Of a DNA stretch of 64,000 nt, positions 35,637 through 45,881 are shown in pieces; position 1 is the first letter of the stretch, and every line of letters begins with the position of its first letter. The notes under the pieces are model-generated. The model did not search any database, was not told the DNA's origin, and was given only the letters and a program-made list of their open reading frames with translations. This stretch comes from Deltaproteobacteria bacterium. GTDB taxonomy: Bacteria; Desulfobacterota; Binatia; DP-6. The translations under genes were made by a program, and so were the position numbers. Where the stretch lies: NCBI GenBank assembly GCA_005888095.1, contig VBKF01000094.1, forward strand, positions 1-64,000, in the 5' to 3' direction.

Positions 35637-36934
35637 TGCAGGAGCTCCCGCGGGTCGGTGATGTGGCCCGTCACGGCGGAGGCCGCAACGGTGTAGGGCG
35701 AGGCGAGGTAGACCTGTCCCTCCTTGGCGCCCATGCGGCCGGGGAAGTTGCGGTTGGTGGTGGAGATGCAGACCTCGGGGCCGTTGATGCGCCCGAAGGT
35801 GTCGCGCGGGCCGCCGAGGCAGGCGGCGCACGAGGCGTCGATCGAGATCTGACAACCGGCGTCGCGGAAGATGTCGAGCAACGGGCGGCCGTCGACGGTG
35901 TGCGTACGGAGGCCGGTCGAGACCTCGGTGGTCGACGGCACGAGGAAGGTGTCCACCGCCACCCGGCGCCCCTTGAGCACCCGGGCCGCATTGATGAAGT
36001 CGGTGATCTTGCCGCCGGTGCACGAGCCGATGTAGGCGCGCGTCAGCCGCACGTCCTTGAGCTCGCGCGCGAGCGCGCGGTTGTCGGGCGAGTGCGGCTT
36101 GGCGACCACGGGCTCGAGCCGCCCGGCGTCGTAACGGCGCTCGAAGCAGAAGGTGGCGCCCGGGTCGTTCGTCACCTCGGTGAACGGCCTCTTCGTGCGC
36201 GCGCCGACGTAGGCGCGCGTCGTCTGGTCGGCCGCGATGATGCCGTTCTTGCCGCCCGCCTCGATCACCATGTTGGCGAGCGTCATCCGCTCCTCCATCG
36301 ACAGGCGCATGACGGCGTCTCCCGCGAATTCCATCGCCCGATACGTTGCCCCGTCGACACCGACGTCGCCGATGATCTGGAGGATCAGGTCCTTGGCGAG
36401 GATGTACGGCGGCACCTCGCCCTCGAAGACGAAGTGCATCGTCGGCGGCACCTTGAGCAGGAGCTTGCCGGTCCCCATGACGAAGGCGGCGTCGGTGTTG
36501 CCGATGCCGGTGGCGAACTCGTTGAAGGCGCCGGCCGTGCAGGTGTGGGAGTCGGTCCCGAAGAGCACCTCGCCGGGGCGGGTGTGGCCCTCCTCGGCGA
36601 GCGCGATGTGGCAGACGCCCTTGTAGCGCGGCGTGCCGACGTCGTAGAGGTGCGGGAGGCCCTGCTCGCCGGCGAACTCGCGCAGGATGTCCACGTTGCG
36701 GTGGGCCTTGTCGTCCTTGGTGAAGATATAGTGGTCCGGGATGAGGACCACGCGGTCGCGGTCCCAGACGCGTGCCGCTTTGCCGAACTCGCGCCGGAAG
36801 ATGCCGATCGTGCCTGGCCCGCAGACGTCGTGGGTCATGAGGACGTCGGCCGCCACCCAGACGTTGTCGCCGGGCTCGACCGTCCGCTTCCCGGCCGCGC
36901 GCGCCAGGATCTTCTCGGTCATGGTCATACTCAT
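35633..36934 (-). CDS. leuC: 3-isopropylmalate dehydratase large subunit
   Basis: 433 aa. Aconitase-family enzyme carrying a 4Fe-4S cluster: the Cys ligands are in YIGSCTGG and DASCAACLGG. TMTEKILARAAG opens the protein, with LFGTDSHTCTAGAFNEFATGIG and the closing GRMGAKEGQVYLASPYT typical of the family. The ATG at 36934 overlaps the leuA stop (ATGA), and the end overlaps leuD the same way, so leuA, leuC and leuD are translationally coupled. Confidence 0.96.
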   Translation of the reverse strand: MSMTMTEKILARAAGKRTVEPGDNVWVAADVLMTHDVCGPGTIGIFRREFGKAARVWDRDRVVLIPDHYIFTKDDKAHRNVDILREFAGEQGLPHLYDVGTPRYKGVCHIALAEEGHTRPGEVLFGTDSHTCTAGAFNEFATGIGNTDAAFVMGTGKLLLKVPPTMHFVFEGEVPPYILAKDLILQIIGDVGVDGATYRAMEFAGDAVMRLSMEERMTLANMVIEAGGKNGIIAADQTTRAYVGARTKRPFTEVTNDPGATFCFERRYDAGRLEPVVAKPHSPDNRALARELKDVRLTRAYIGSCTGGKITDFINAARVLKGRRVAVDTFLVPSTTEVSTGLRTHTVDGRPLLDIFRDAGCQISIDASCAACLGGPRDTFGRINGPEVCISTTNRNFPGRMGAKEGQVYLASPYTVAASAVTGHITDPRELLQ

Positions 36935-38481
36935 GGCCCGACCTCCGCCGTCTGGATCTGCTGGCGGTGGAGGCGCCGGTAAGCGAGCCGGTTGAGCGCG
37001 TTCAGGTAGGCGAGCGCGCTCGCCTGGATGATGTCGGTGTGGCTCCCCTGTCCGAGCACGGTGATGCCGGCCTCCGAGACCAGGCACGACACCTCGCCCT
37101 GCGCGTCGGTGCCGCCGGTGATCGCCTTGACGGCATAGCGCTCGAGCTGCGGGTGCTGCCCGGTGAGGTCGCCGATCACCTTGTAGCAGGCGTCGACCAT
37201 GCCGTCGCCGGTGCCCGATCCCATCACCTCCTCGCCGTCGATCTTGAGCTTCACGGTGGCATGCGGCACGGCCATGCTCGAGGAGGTGACGTTCAGGTAG
37301 GTGAGGACGTAACGCTCGCTCGCGCCGCCGCGCACCGACTGCTGCGCCACGAGCGCGATCAGGTCCTCGTCGTAGACGCTCTTCTTGGCGTCCGCCAGCG
37401 CCTTGAAGCGGTCGAACGCGACGTTCATGTCGACGTCTGTCGTGTCGAGGCCGAGCTCGCGCAGCCGCGCGACGAAGGCGTGCCGCCCCGAGTGCTTGCC
37501 GAGGACCAGGCGGTTCGAGTCGAGGCCGACCGACTCGGGCCGCATGATCTCGTAGTTGAGGCGGTTCTTGAGCACGCCGTCCTGGTGGATGCCGGCCTCG
37601 TGCGCGAACGCGTTGTCGCCGACGATCGGCTTGTTCACCGGCACGGTGAGGCCGGTGATCTGCGCGAGCAGCCGGCTGGTCGGGTAGATCTGCTCGGTCA
37701 CGATGCCGGTGTCGACGCCGAAGCGGTCGCCGCGGGTCTTGATCGCCATGACGACCTCTTCCATGGCGGTGTTGCCGGCCCGCTCGCCGATGCCGTTGAC
37801 CGTGCACTCGATCTGTCGCGCGCCGTTCTGCACGGCGGCCAGCGAGTTGGCGACCGCCATCCCGAGGTCGTTGTGGCAGTGGGCGCTCCAGATGACGCGG
37901 TCCGCCCCCTTGACCCGCTCGCGGAGCAGCCGGAAGAGCGCGCCGTACTCCTCGGGGAGCGCGTAGCCCGTCGTGTCGGGGACGTTGATCGTCCGCGCCC
38001 CGGCCTCGATCACGGCGGAGAAGACCTCGATCAGGTACTCGGGGTCGCTGCGCGAGGCGTCCTCGGCGGAGAACTCGACGTAGTCGAGGTGCTTCTTGGC
38101 GCGCGTGACCGCCCACACCGCGGCGTCGAGCACGTCCTTCCGGCTCATCATGAGCTTGTGCTTCAGGTGAATGTCGGAGGTGGCGATGAAGATGTGGATG
38201 CCGGGCCGCTTGGCGCGCTCGACGGCGCGGAGGGCGCGGTCGACGTCCTGCTCCCGGGTGCGCGCCAGCGAGAGGACGATGGGCCGCGAGACGGCCTCCG
38301 CGACGCGGCGCACCGCCTCGAAGTCGCCCTCGGACGACGCCGCGAACCCGGCCTCGATCACGTCGACGCCGAGGTGCTCGAGCTGGCGGGCGATCGCCAG
38401 CTTCTCCTCCACGTTCATGGTCGCGCCGGGCGACTGCTCGCCGTCGCGCAGCGTCGTGTCGAAGATCTGAACCCGGTCCAT
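36931..38481 (-). CDS. leuA: 2-isopropylmalate synthase
   Basis: 516 aa. Condenses acetyl-CoA with 2-ketoisovalerate, the first committed step of leucine synthesis. The catalytic barrel shows [18 protein letters not shown], the metal HxH in [11 protein letters not shown], and [10 protein letters not shown]. The C-terminal part (~390-510) is the LeuA allosteric domain that binds leucine, with [20 protein letters not shown] lies 7 nt before the ATG. It is preceded by a leucine-rich leader peptide and attenuator (38530-38674), so control is both transcriptional and by feedback. Confidence 0.97.
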
Positions 38482-38529
38482 CGTCTTCTCCTTTCGTCCG
38501 ACGGACCCCCCGCCTCGTGGCCCAGAAAC

Positions 38530-38562
38530 AAAAAAGCCACGAGCGGAAGGTCCGCCCGTGGC
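38530..38562 (-). terminator. leu operon attenuator terminator
   Basis: On the minus strand GCCACGGGCGGA (38562-38551) pairs with TCCGCTCGTGGC (38547-38536) around the loop CCT, with one G-U pair, and six T follow (38535-38530). It stands 48 bp before leuA and 28 bp after the leader-peptide stop. Its left arm can alternatively pair with CCGCCCG in the end of the leader coding sequence (within 38611-38618), which would break the terminator. This is the classical attenuation layout. Confidence 0.85.
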
Positions 38563-38590
38563 ATCTCGCCGAGCTTGGGTTCTCGAGTCC

Positions 38591-38674
38591 CTACGCTCGG
38601 GCGAGAGCCGCGGGCGGGCTGCTAAGCAGCAGGCCCAGGGCCAGTCCGAGCAGGAGTAGGGACAGCGCGTTCAC
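38591..38674 (-). CDS. leuL: leucine operon leader peptide
   Basis: 27 codons beginning GTG AAC GCG CTG and ending at TAG. Eleven codons are Leu, mostly in the first 17, including two short runs (CTA CTC CTG CTC and CTG CTG CTT). Ribosome stalling on these codons when charged leucyl-tRNA is scarce would free the antiterminator and allow leuA-leuC-leuD expression. No ribosome binding site precedes the GTG. The predicted transcription start lies only a few bases upstream, so the leader may be translated as a leaderless message. Confidence 0.75.
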   Translation of the reverse strand: MNALSLLLLGLALGLLLSSPPAALARA

Positions 38675-38683
38675 TGAGTGAAG

Positions 38684-38712
38684 GCGTTACCCGCGTGGCG
38701 CCGGCTTGTCAA
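38684..38712 (-). promoter_or_regulatory. sigma70-type promoter of the leu leader and leuA-leuC-leuD
   Basis: A perfect TTGACA (38712-38707) is followed after 17 bp by TAACGC (38689-38684), a weak -10. Transcription would start at about 38677, three bases before the leader GTG at 38674. Confidence 0.55.
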
Positions 38713-38967: not shown

Positions 38968-39789
38968 CTACGGGGCGTGGACCAGGAGGCTGCCGACGAG
39001 ACCGTGCATCGTGGACACGCTGCGGCGCAGCTTCAGCCGCTCGATGTAATGGCCGACCGTGCGTGGGCTCAGGCCCGTCGCCTCGGCGATCTCCTTGTGG
39101 GTCTTGTCGGCAATGAGCAGCCGCGCGATCGCCCGCTCCTTCCCGGCGAGGCCCAGGAGTGGAGGCGCCGCTGCGCGGGGGCGAGCGAGCTGCACCGCGA
39201 CGCTCGCCACGTGGGCGAGCAGCTTGAGCACGATCTCCTGGTCGCCGGTGCACTGCCAGCACCCCTTCTTCGCCGCCGCGAGCGTGCCGATCGGTCCCTC
39301 TGGCCCACGCAGCGGCACGATGCACAGGCCCCGCACGTCATTGCGGCGCGAGAAGGCGGCGCGCGGGTTGTCACGCAGCCGCCGCACGTCCCCGCAGCGC
39401 AGCGTCCGACCAGAGGTAATGACGGTGCCGCTGAGGCTCGCCGCCACCGGCAGCCGGGTCCCATGGATGGCACCCGGCGCCCCGTACACGCTCACCACCT
39501 CGAGCTCCTGCCGGTCTTCGCGCAGCAGGTTGATCGCCACCATCCGCACCCCGCAGAGATGCGCGGCGCCCTGCACGATCGAGGCGAGCAGCCGCTCGAG
39601 GCCCGTATGCGCGGTCGCCTCCTCGAGCAGGCGATGGAGAAACGTCACCAGCGCGAGTTCGGCCGCCCGAGGCGGTTGCGCTCGCGGCTCGCGCGCGCCG
39701 AGCGGGACCACCACCTTCGAGCGGGCCGCTCGCCGGGCCGCTCCAACGTTCAGGCGACCCACGCCTCCGGTGGTCGACGGGCTCCTCAT
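38968..39789 (-). CDS. GAF-domain LuxR-type transcriptional regulator
   Basis: 273 aa. Residues ~55-200 form a GAF sensor domain (LLASIVQGAAHLCGVRMVAINLL...GLCIVPLRGPEGPIGTLAAAKK), which may bind a small molecule or respond to redox through WQC. The C-terminal LuxR HTH reads KERAIARLLIADKTHKEIAEATGLSPRTVGHYIERLKLRRSV. There is no receiver domain, so it is probably a one-component regulator. It lies 39 bp behind the secreted hydrolase gene on the same strand and may regulate it. No clear ribosome site precedes the ATG. Confidence 0.85.
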   Translation of the reverse strand: MRSPSTTGGVGRLNVGAARRAARSKVVVPLGAREPRAQPPRAAELALVTFLHRLLEEATAHTGLERLLASIVQGAAHLCGVRMVAINLLREDRQELEVVSVYGAPGAIHGTRLPVAASLSGTVITSGRTLRCGDVRRLRDNPRAAFSRRNDVRGLCIVPLRGPEGPIGTLAAAKKGCWQCTGDQEIVLKLLAHVASVAVQLARPRAAAPPLLGLAGKERAIARLLIADKTHKEIAEATGLSPRTVGHYIERLKLRRSVSTMHGLVGSLLVHAP

Positions 39790-45656: not shown

Positions 45657-45881
45657 TCAGTGCGGGCGGTAGCGGGCCAGGATCTCCATGATCTTGTCCT
45701 TGCCCGCGAGCTTGAGCTTCTGCAGCCGCTTCTTCTCCACCTCCTCCTCCGTGGTGAGGTGCAGCTTCTGCTGGTAGACGGCGAGGCGGCGTTCCAGATC
45801 GACGTGCTCCTCGTAGTACCGCCTGAGGTCGGGCTCGCGCTCCAGCAGGGACTGGATCAGCTCCTCGTCCTTCTTCTCCAT
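45657..45881 (-). CDS. YdcH/DUF465-family small protein
   Basis: 74 aa, highly charged and predicted all helical. EERLIQSLLE-type opening (MEKKDEELIQSLLEREPDLRR), YYEEHVDLERRLAVYQ and KKRLQKLKLAGKDKIMEIL match the DUF465/YdcH pattern of a short antiparallel coiled coil. Function unknown. It is the first gene after a good promoter (45894-45921), at the head of ydcH-ilvN-ilvC-psd-pssA. Confidence 0.85.
   Translation of the reverse strand: MEKKDEELIQSLLEREPDLRRYYEEHVDLERRLAVYQQKLHLTTEEEVEKKRLQKLKLAGKDKIMEILARYRPH

Follow-up and report, generated by a model that had tools for sequence, protein, structure and literature searches.

The leader region of leuA in the DNA examined here, a stretch of 64,000 nucleotides (the window), is very probably a ribosome-mediated transcription attenuator that senses leucyl-tRNA and operates on a leaderless leader peptide. 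All of the elements described in the initial annotation are present on the minus strand. A TTGACA hexamer at 38707..38712 and a -10-like TAACGC hexamer at 38684..38689, both read directly, are separated by 17 nt. The leader ORF at 38591..38674, encoding the 27 aa VNALSLLLLGLALGLLLSSPPAALARA before a TAG, contains 11 leucine codons. Its GTG start codon (38674-38672) begins 9 nt past the -10 and is not preceded by an SD-like stretch, and its stop codon is at 38593-38591. The final leucine codon ahead of the antiterminator arm is CTT at 38624..38626, the modelled switch point. The core of the antiterminator 5' arm, CCGCCCG (38611..38617), is within the leader frame, 9 nt from this codon, and was identified from the fold and from in-register pairing. 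Its 3' partner in the fold, CGGGCGG (38552..38558), belongs to the left arm of the intrinsic terminator. This is a folded hairpin of 12 bp at 38536..38562, found 28 nt after the leader stop and followed by a directly read T6 tract (38530..38535); a counterpart is kept in relatives. The regulated gene, leuA (36931..38481, ATG at 38481), has the Shine-Dalgarno sequence AAAGGAG at 38488..38494 by direct reading and encodes a 2-isopropylmalate synthase by its matches to NCBIfam NF002086 (750 bits, cut-off 532) and TIGR00973 (697 bits, cut-off 599).

Among ORFs of 15-45 aa in the 64-kb window, the leader frame alone has a leucine content of 35% or more, and no ORF of this kind occurs in 20 mononucleotide shuffles of the window. 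The terminator hairpin has a folding energy of -22.6 kcal/mol (z -6.2), the antiterminator fold of 38626-38548 one of -47.3 kcal/mol (z -5.9), and the entire leader a z of -5.7. A LuxR-like gene (38968-39789) is upstream of the leader on the same strand. An aconitase-family gene is next after leuA, also on the same strand, and is followed by an ORF that we take to be LeuD-like. A search of the window against Rfam, which includes the T-box and Leu leader families, gave no matches at the gathering score, and a T-box or riboswitch identity was rejected on this basis.

The LeuA relatives found in named records are from Candidatus Binatota or Binatia MAGs, often filed as Deltaproteobacteria, and the window is nested within these sequences in the LeuA tree. 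By sequence, the window genome, that of an uncultured soil bacterium, would belong to Candidatus Binatota, class Binatia. Upstream regions of leuA taken from 58 genomes and 80 named contigs gave 101 distinct loci, of which 64 share the layout of the window, relatives being non-independent samples in this and all counts over these loci. This layout opens with TTGAC and one further base, followed after 16-18 nt by a -10 that is mostly of TA type; then come a start codon, a leucine-containing frame of 23-36 codons and leuA, with a terminator between leader and leuA in nearly all cases. In another 31 loci leuA is directly behind a gene with a pssA-like end. Six are unclassified, L003 among them only because its contig begins inside the leader; the portion present in this locus (97% leuA) agrees with the window. 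Six changes of leader state suffice for the 101 rows of the LeuA tree and the leader is therefore spread over deep Binatia branches. According to the initial annotation, its proposal would be refuted if close relatives lacked the Leu-rich frame; the frame is retained, in L004 and in L005-L008. Its proposal of leucine attenuation is well supported by a Leu-rich frame, a terminator, a covarying antiterminator and a fixed geometry in 64 loci. In the window genome itself, no comparable leader was seen in the sequence upstream of ilvB, trpE or leuS. Several public MAGs with a leuA locus of Binatia type have record names that are probably wrong for this reason, including L035 and L108 (titled Klebsiella pneumoniae), L041 (Desulfurellaceae), L049 (Polyangiaceae) and L082 (Syntrophobacter).

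In the window fold the left arm of the terminator can pair with the last part of the leader coding sequence, as had been proposed from the window alone, and this alternative is conserved. Among the 21 distinct group-A sequences, 95% of the cells of the 7-bp antiterminator core are paired in register, and sliding the arms by 1-4 nt reduces this to 35-59%. A compensated change is seen in L103, L104, L110 and L111, which have G-C in place of the C-G of the other group-A sequences. L044 carries a three-way change: its leader has T for the C of its relatives, the left arm A for G, and the right arm T for C, so that antiterminator and terminator are both preserved in this locus. The terminator stem of group B is paired in 285 of 288 cells, with two-sided changes in 6 of its 12 pairs. 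In most loci the antiterminator arm begins 8-9 nt from the control codon. In 40 of 64 loci the duplex between leader and left arm is stronger (p<=0.05) than in dinucleotide-shuffled leader segments, a proportion lowered partly by the picking of a second tandem terminator. RNAalifold gave no consensus for the whole antiterminator segment of group B, where the alignment is gap-rich, and no result for the group-A terminator owing to its variable loops; anchored pairing was used instead.

Tandem terminators are a feature of family f5, in which the first hairpin between leader and leuA is followed by another strong one with its own T run (L010, L011, L013-L015, L017, L019 and L036-L038). In the window, the right arm of the terminator also pairs past the T tract with GGCCACGAGGCGGGGGGTCC (38553-38503, minus strand, -37.2 kcal/mol), and in L005 and L006 a separate hairpin is found at the place of this pairing.

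Transcript start, translation of the frame, termination and leucine response are predicted from this arrangement. Transcription would begin at or a few bases from the leader start codon, and because of this the ribosome would load at the RNA 5' end with no Shine-Dalgarno sequence to guide it. Under a shortage of charged leucyl-tRNA, it would stall on the run of leucine codons, at the latest on the rare CTT. The downstream CCGCCCG and the sequence beyond it would then be free to pair with the nascent left arm of the terminator, and RNA polymerase would read through into leuA. With ample leucine, the ribosome would move past CTT and cover the antiterminator arm. Since this arm is inside the leader frame, its coverage by the ribosome would allow the terminator to form. 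Equilibrium folding with different ribosome positions and the full terminator was tried and gave no switch, the terminator being more stable in almost every case. The switch must therefore be kinetic, made during transcription, as in classical attenuators. The window has no strong protector (1:2) hairpin; a small one, CUGCUGCUUAGCAG, is present, and it is not kept in L006-L008. When the whole leader region as far as leuA is folded, the antiterminator persists. An untranslated leader may for these reasons read through, a behaviour that would set it apart from the trp paradigm.

The last codon of the leucine cluster is CTT in 57 of the 64 leaders, CTA in six and CTG in one, and the remaining leucine codons of the leader vary more freely. 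CTT and CTA account for 5% and 1% of the leucine codons (together 6%) in the leuA genes of the same 64 loci, and for the window leuA none of the 44 leucine codons is CTT. The position of the ribosome was modelled in 57 loci, with the RNA folded until the left arm of the terminator is just made and the ribosome blocking -18 to +11 around the A-site. With the A-site anywhere before the control codon, the leader holds a modelled 0.75-0.78 of the left arm; this share drops to 0.51 at the control codon and to 0.44, 0.37 and 0.29 at the next three codons. Because the modelled share falls from CTT onward, the conserved rare codon would be the switch point. The tRNA-Leu anticodons found in the genome include CAG, TAG, CAA and GAG, the last of which can read CTT. 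As GAG reads both CTC and CTT, codon rarity or slow wobble decoding would be needed to account for the choice, rather than isoacceptor identity alone.

Of the competing explanations, the one with the best standing applies to the control codon only. It states that CTT or CTA and the next base are kept for RNA structure or for an RNA polymerase pause, instead of for slow or starvation-sensitive decoding. In 54 of 64 loci an A follows the control codon, and none of the 64 leaders has CTC at the control position although tRNA(GAG) reads it too, so that tRNA identity alone is insufficient. However, where CTA replaces CTT in six loci, rarity is kept and base identity is not, and CTT is not itself in the paired arm but immediately beside it. 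The slow leucine codons of Escherichia coli, which are also starvation-variable, are CUU, CUC and CUA (PMC3783181), and theory and experiment on leu attenuators favour codons with these properties (PMC1183508). A change of CUA to CUG in the Salmonella leader lowers its sensitivity, as far as the work of Carter et al. is reported in PMC1183508. The structural explanation is unlikely, though it deserves consideration.

The position of the promoter bears on whether the leader is leaderless. In a search with no distance term, run on starts already chosen, 57 of 64 loci have their best promoter so placed that 5-12 nt separate the -10 from the start codon, most often 9 nt, compared to 9.9% of shuffled upstream regions. 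The choice among in-frame leader starts did carry a mild distance term, and a separate search without it gave the same peak. An anti-SD match of 4 nt before the leader start is absent in 48 of the 64. Transcription usually begins about 6-8 nt after the -10, which predicts a transcript start 0 to about 5 nt ahead of the start codon. A near-absent 5' UTR is therefore predicted to be conserved. Similar promoters are found before the ATG of ordinary-looking genes of the same genome, nine at 6-11 nt and four at 26-31 nt, with none for the reversed pattern; these would back leaderless transcripts without proving them. Of the leaderless start claimed in the initial annotation, the conserved 5-12 nt distance and the weak SD signals stand in support, and the transcript 5' end is a prediction. 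The leuA leader is, on these grounds, supported as leaderless or nearly so.

It is improbable that the attenuator is real and the leader is not leaderless, with the main transcript coming from an upstream promoter or from read-through of the LuxR-like gene and the start codon being internal. The same-strand gene upstream would permit this, as would the weak TAACGC, which matches TATAAT at TA only. The use of GTG as start codon in the window likewise counts against the main explanation. The window promoter is not called by a strict sigma-70 scan; the scan misses it because of the poor -10, and the comparison with relatives supports it. In five of the 64 leaders the distance from promoter to start is longer, at 16-37 nt, and four of these (L013, L036, L026 and L105) have 30-37 nt. 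Against this, TTGAC is at the same place in 64 of 64 leader loci, TANNNN is at the -10 site in nearly all relatives, most leaders are without an SD, and the 57 promoters at 5-12 nt far exceed the 10% expected by chance. A leaderless leader peptide is thus the better account of the locus. That the frame encodes a small secreted or membrane peptide, with the hairpin just ending its own short transcript, is hardly credible: the peptide is Leu/Ala-rich with a signal-peptide-like ALARA end, but its N-terminal half and length are not conserved between families and leucine content, CTT position and terminator pairing are conserved instead, within a locus collection built on leuA and so surveying leuA settings only.

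In L008, L015, L017, L037, L038 and L040-L042, the promoter of the leader and the 3' end of an upstream pssA-like ORF overlap, the stop codon of this ORF (TGA or TAA) being part of the leader -35 or -10. Elsewhere in the window, a 74-aa ORF at 45881 on the minus strand, starting MEKKDEELIQSLLEREPDLRRYYEEH, has a TTGACA-N18-TAAGGT that ends 10 nt before its ATG and is a candidate for another leaderless gene. It has no match in a Pfam search, and a similar protein precedes ilvB in G007.

Other possible attenuators are present in Binatia. The 31 loci with leuA after a pssA-like gene (L009, L018, L024, L029, L047, L059, L065, L070, L078, L080, L082 and about 20 more) have no leader frame, and a terminator-like hairpin is found between the genes, for example CTCCCGTTGGC..GCCGCGGGAG with a T run. 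The second leucine codon of the LSGPLL tail of pssA is the rare TTA in 20 of 26 cases, TTA being 4% in the body of pssA, and rare A-ending codons persist in the tail even when TGG does not follow. Codons of the tail, CGCCGACGGGAG for example, are able to pair with the left arm of the terminator, and in about 9 of the 31 loci this pairing exceeds that of synonymous shuffles. The end of a structural gene may thus act as the attenuator leader for leuA in these loci. In L171, an ilvB-type gene of G003 in the same family, a Val/Leu-rich GTG-start frame, MAPRTDLLTRVAGLVVVLVVVMRVVVPSAS, is located some 220 nt upstream of the gene; TACACA precedes this frame by about 8 nt, and a hairpin with a T run follows it. 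This looks like a second leaderless branched-chain attenuator. A Val/Leu-rich leader of this type is absent from the ilvB of the window genome.

The leuL leaders of E. coli and Salmonella resemble that of Binatia in having a Leu-rich leader, a terminator and an antiterminator before leuA, and in their rare leucine control codons, CUA there and CTT or CTA in Binatia. In contrast, the Binatia start codon is predicted to stand at the transcript 5' end, and the antiterminator arm is within the leader frame. Enterobacterial leuL has a 5' UTR with a ribosome binding site. A leaderless leader peptide outside the enterobacteria had been described as unusual in the initial annotation, a view contradicted by several published cases. 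In Streptomyces lividans the leuL (leuL1 and leuL2), ilvL and trpL leaders are leaderless (PMC8079986), as is the ilvB leader of Corynebacterium diphtheriae (PMC5784534), and rnTrpL of Sinorhizobium meliloti begins at the trpL ATG (PMC7298713). The Binatia leader shares its apparently leaderless peptide with the actinobacterial leuL2-leuS, leuL1-leuA and ilvL of Streptomyces and ilvB of Corynebacterium, and with leuL2-leuS also a hairpin followed by a U stretch (PMC8079986). It differs from the actinobacterial leuA leader, which is without a typical terminator (PMC8079986). The latter is the LEU element, which has a pseudoknot closed where the leucine codon run pairs with the leuA SD, and in which the leucine codons are without effect in mutants (PMC1262725; PMC8079986). 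Identity with this element was ruled out, since in the window a terminator is present and it is the leader end that pairs with the left arm, not the leucine run with the leuA SD. The trpL of S. meliloti, whose RNA starts from the leader ATG and which works by classical ribosome-mediated attenuation (PMC7298713), is alike in both respects to what is predicted for Binatia, and unlike in having Trp for Leu and trpE(G) for leuA. The S. meliloti peptide also acts in trans.

No relevant report on attenuation in Binatota was found in the open-access literature. The Binatia leader is a known type of attenuator in a new phylum, with unusually clear conservation, and adds an uncultured phylum to the groups with ribosome-mediated attenuation on leaders that are apparently leaderless. 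The approximately 60 diverse natural variants with a fixed geometry are a direct test bed for the older idea of starvation-sensitive synonymous codon choice in attenuators. A second older idea that they can test is that leaderless loading helps to keep ribosome and RNA polymerase in step. A broader proposal, put forward tentatively and with somewhat less than even confidence, is that throughout the Binatota leucine is sensed by ribosomes on leaderless RNA at one exactly placed CUU or CUA, kept by selection at the codon where the structure flips. If true, this would be a natural, phylum-wide case of selection on a single codon for starvation sensitivity in GC-rich genomes, in which leaderless loading would lead to tight coupling of the first ribosome and the polymerase.
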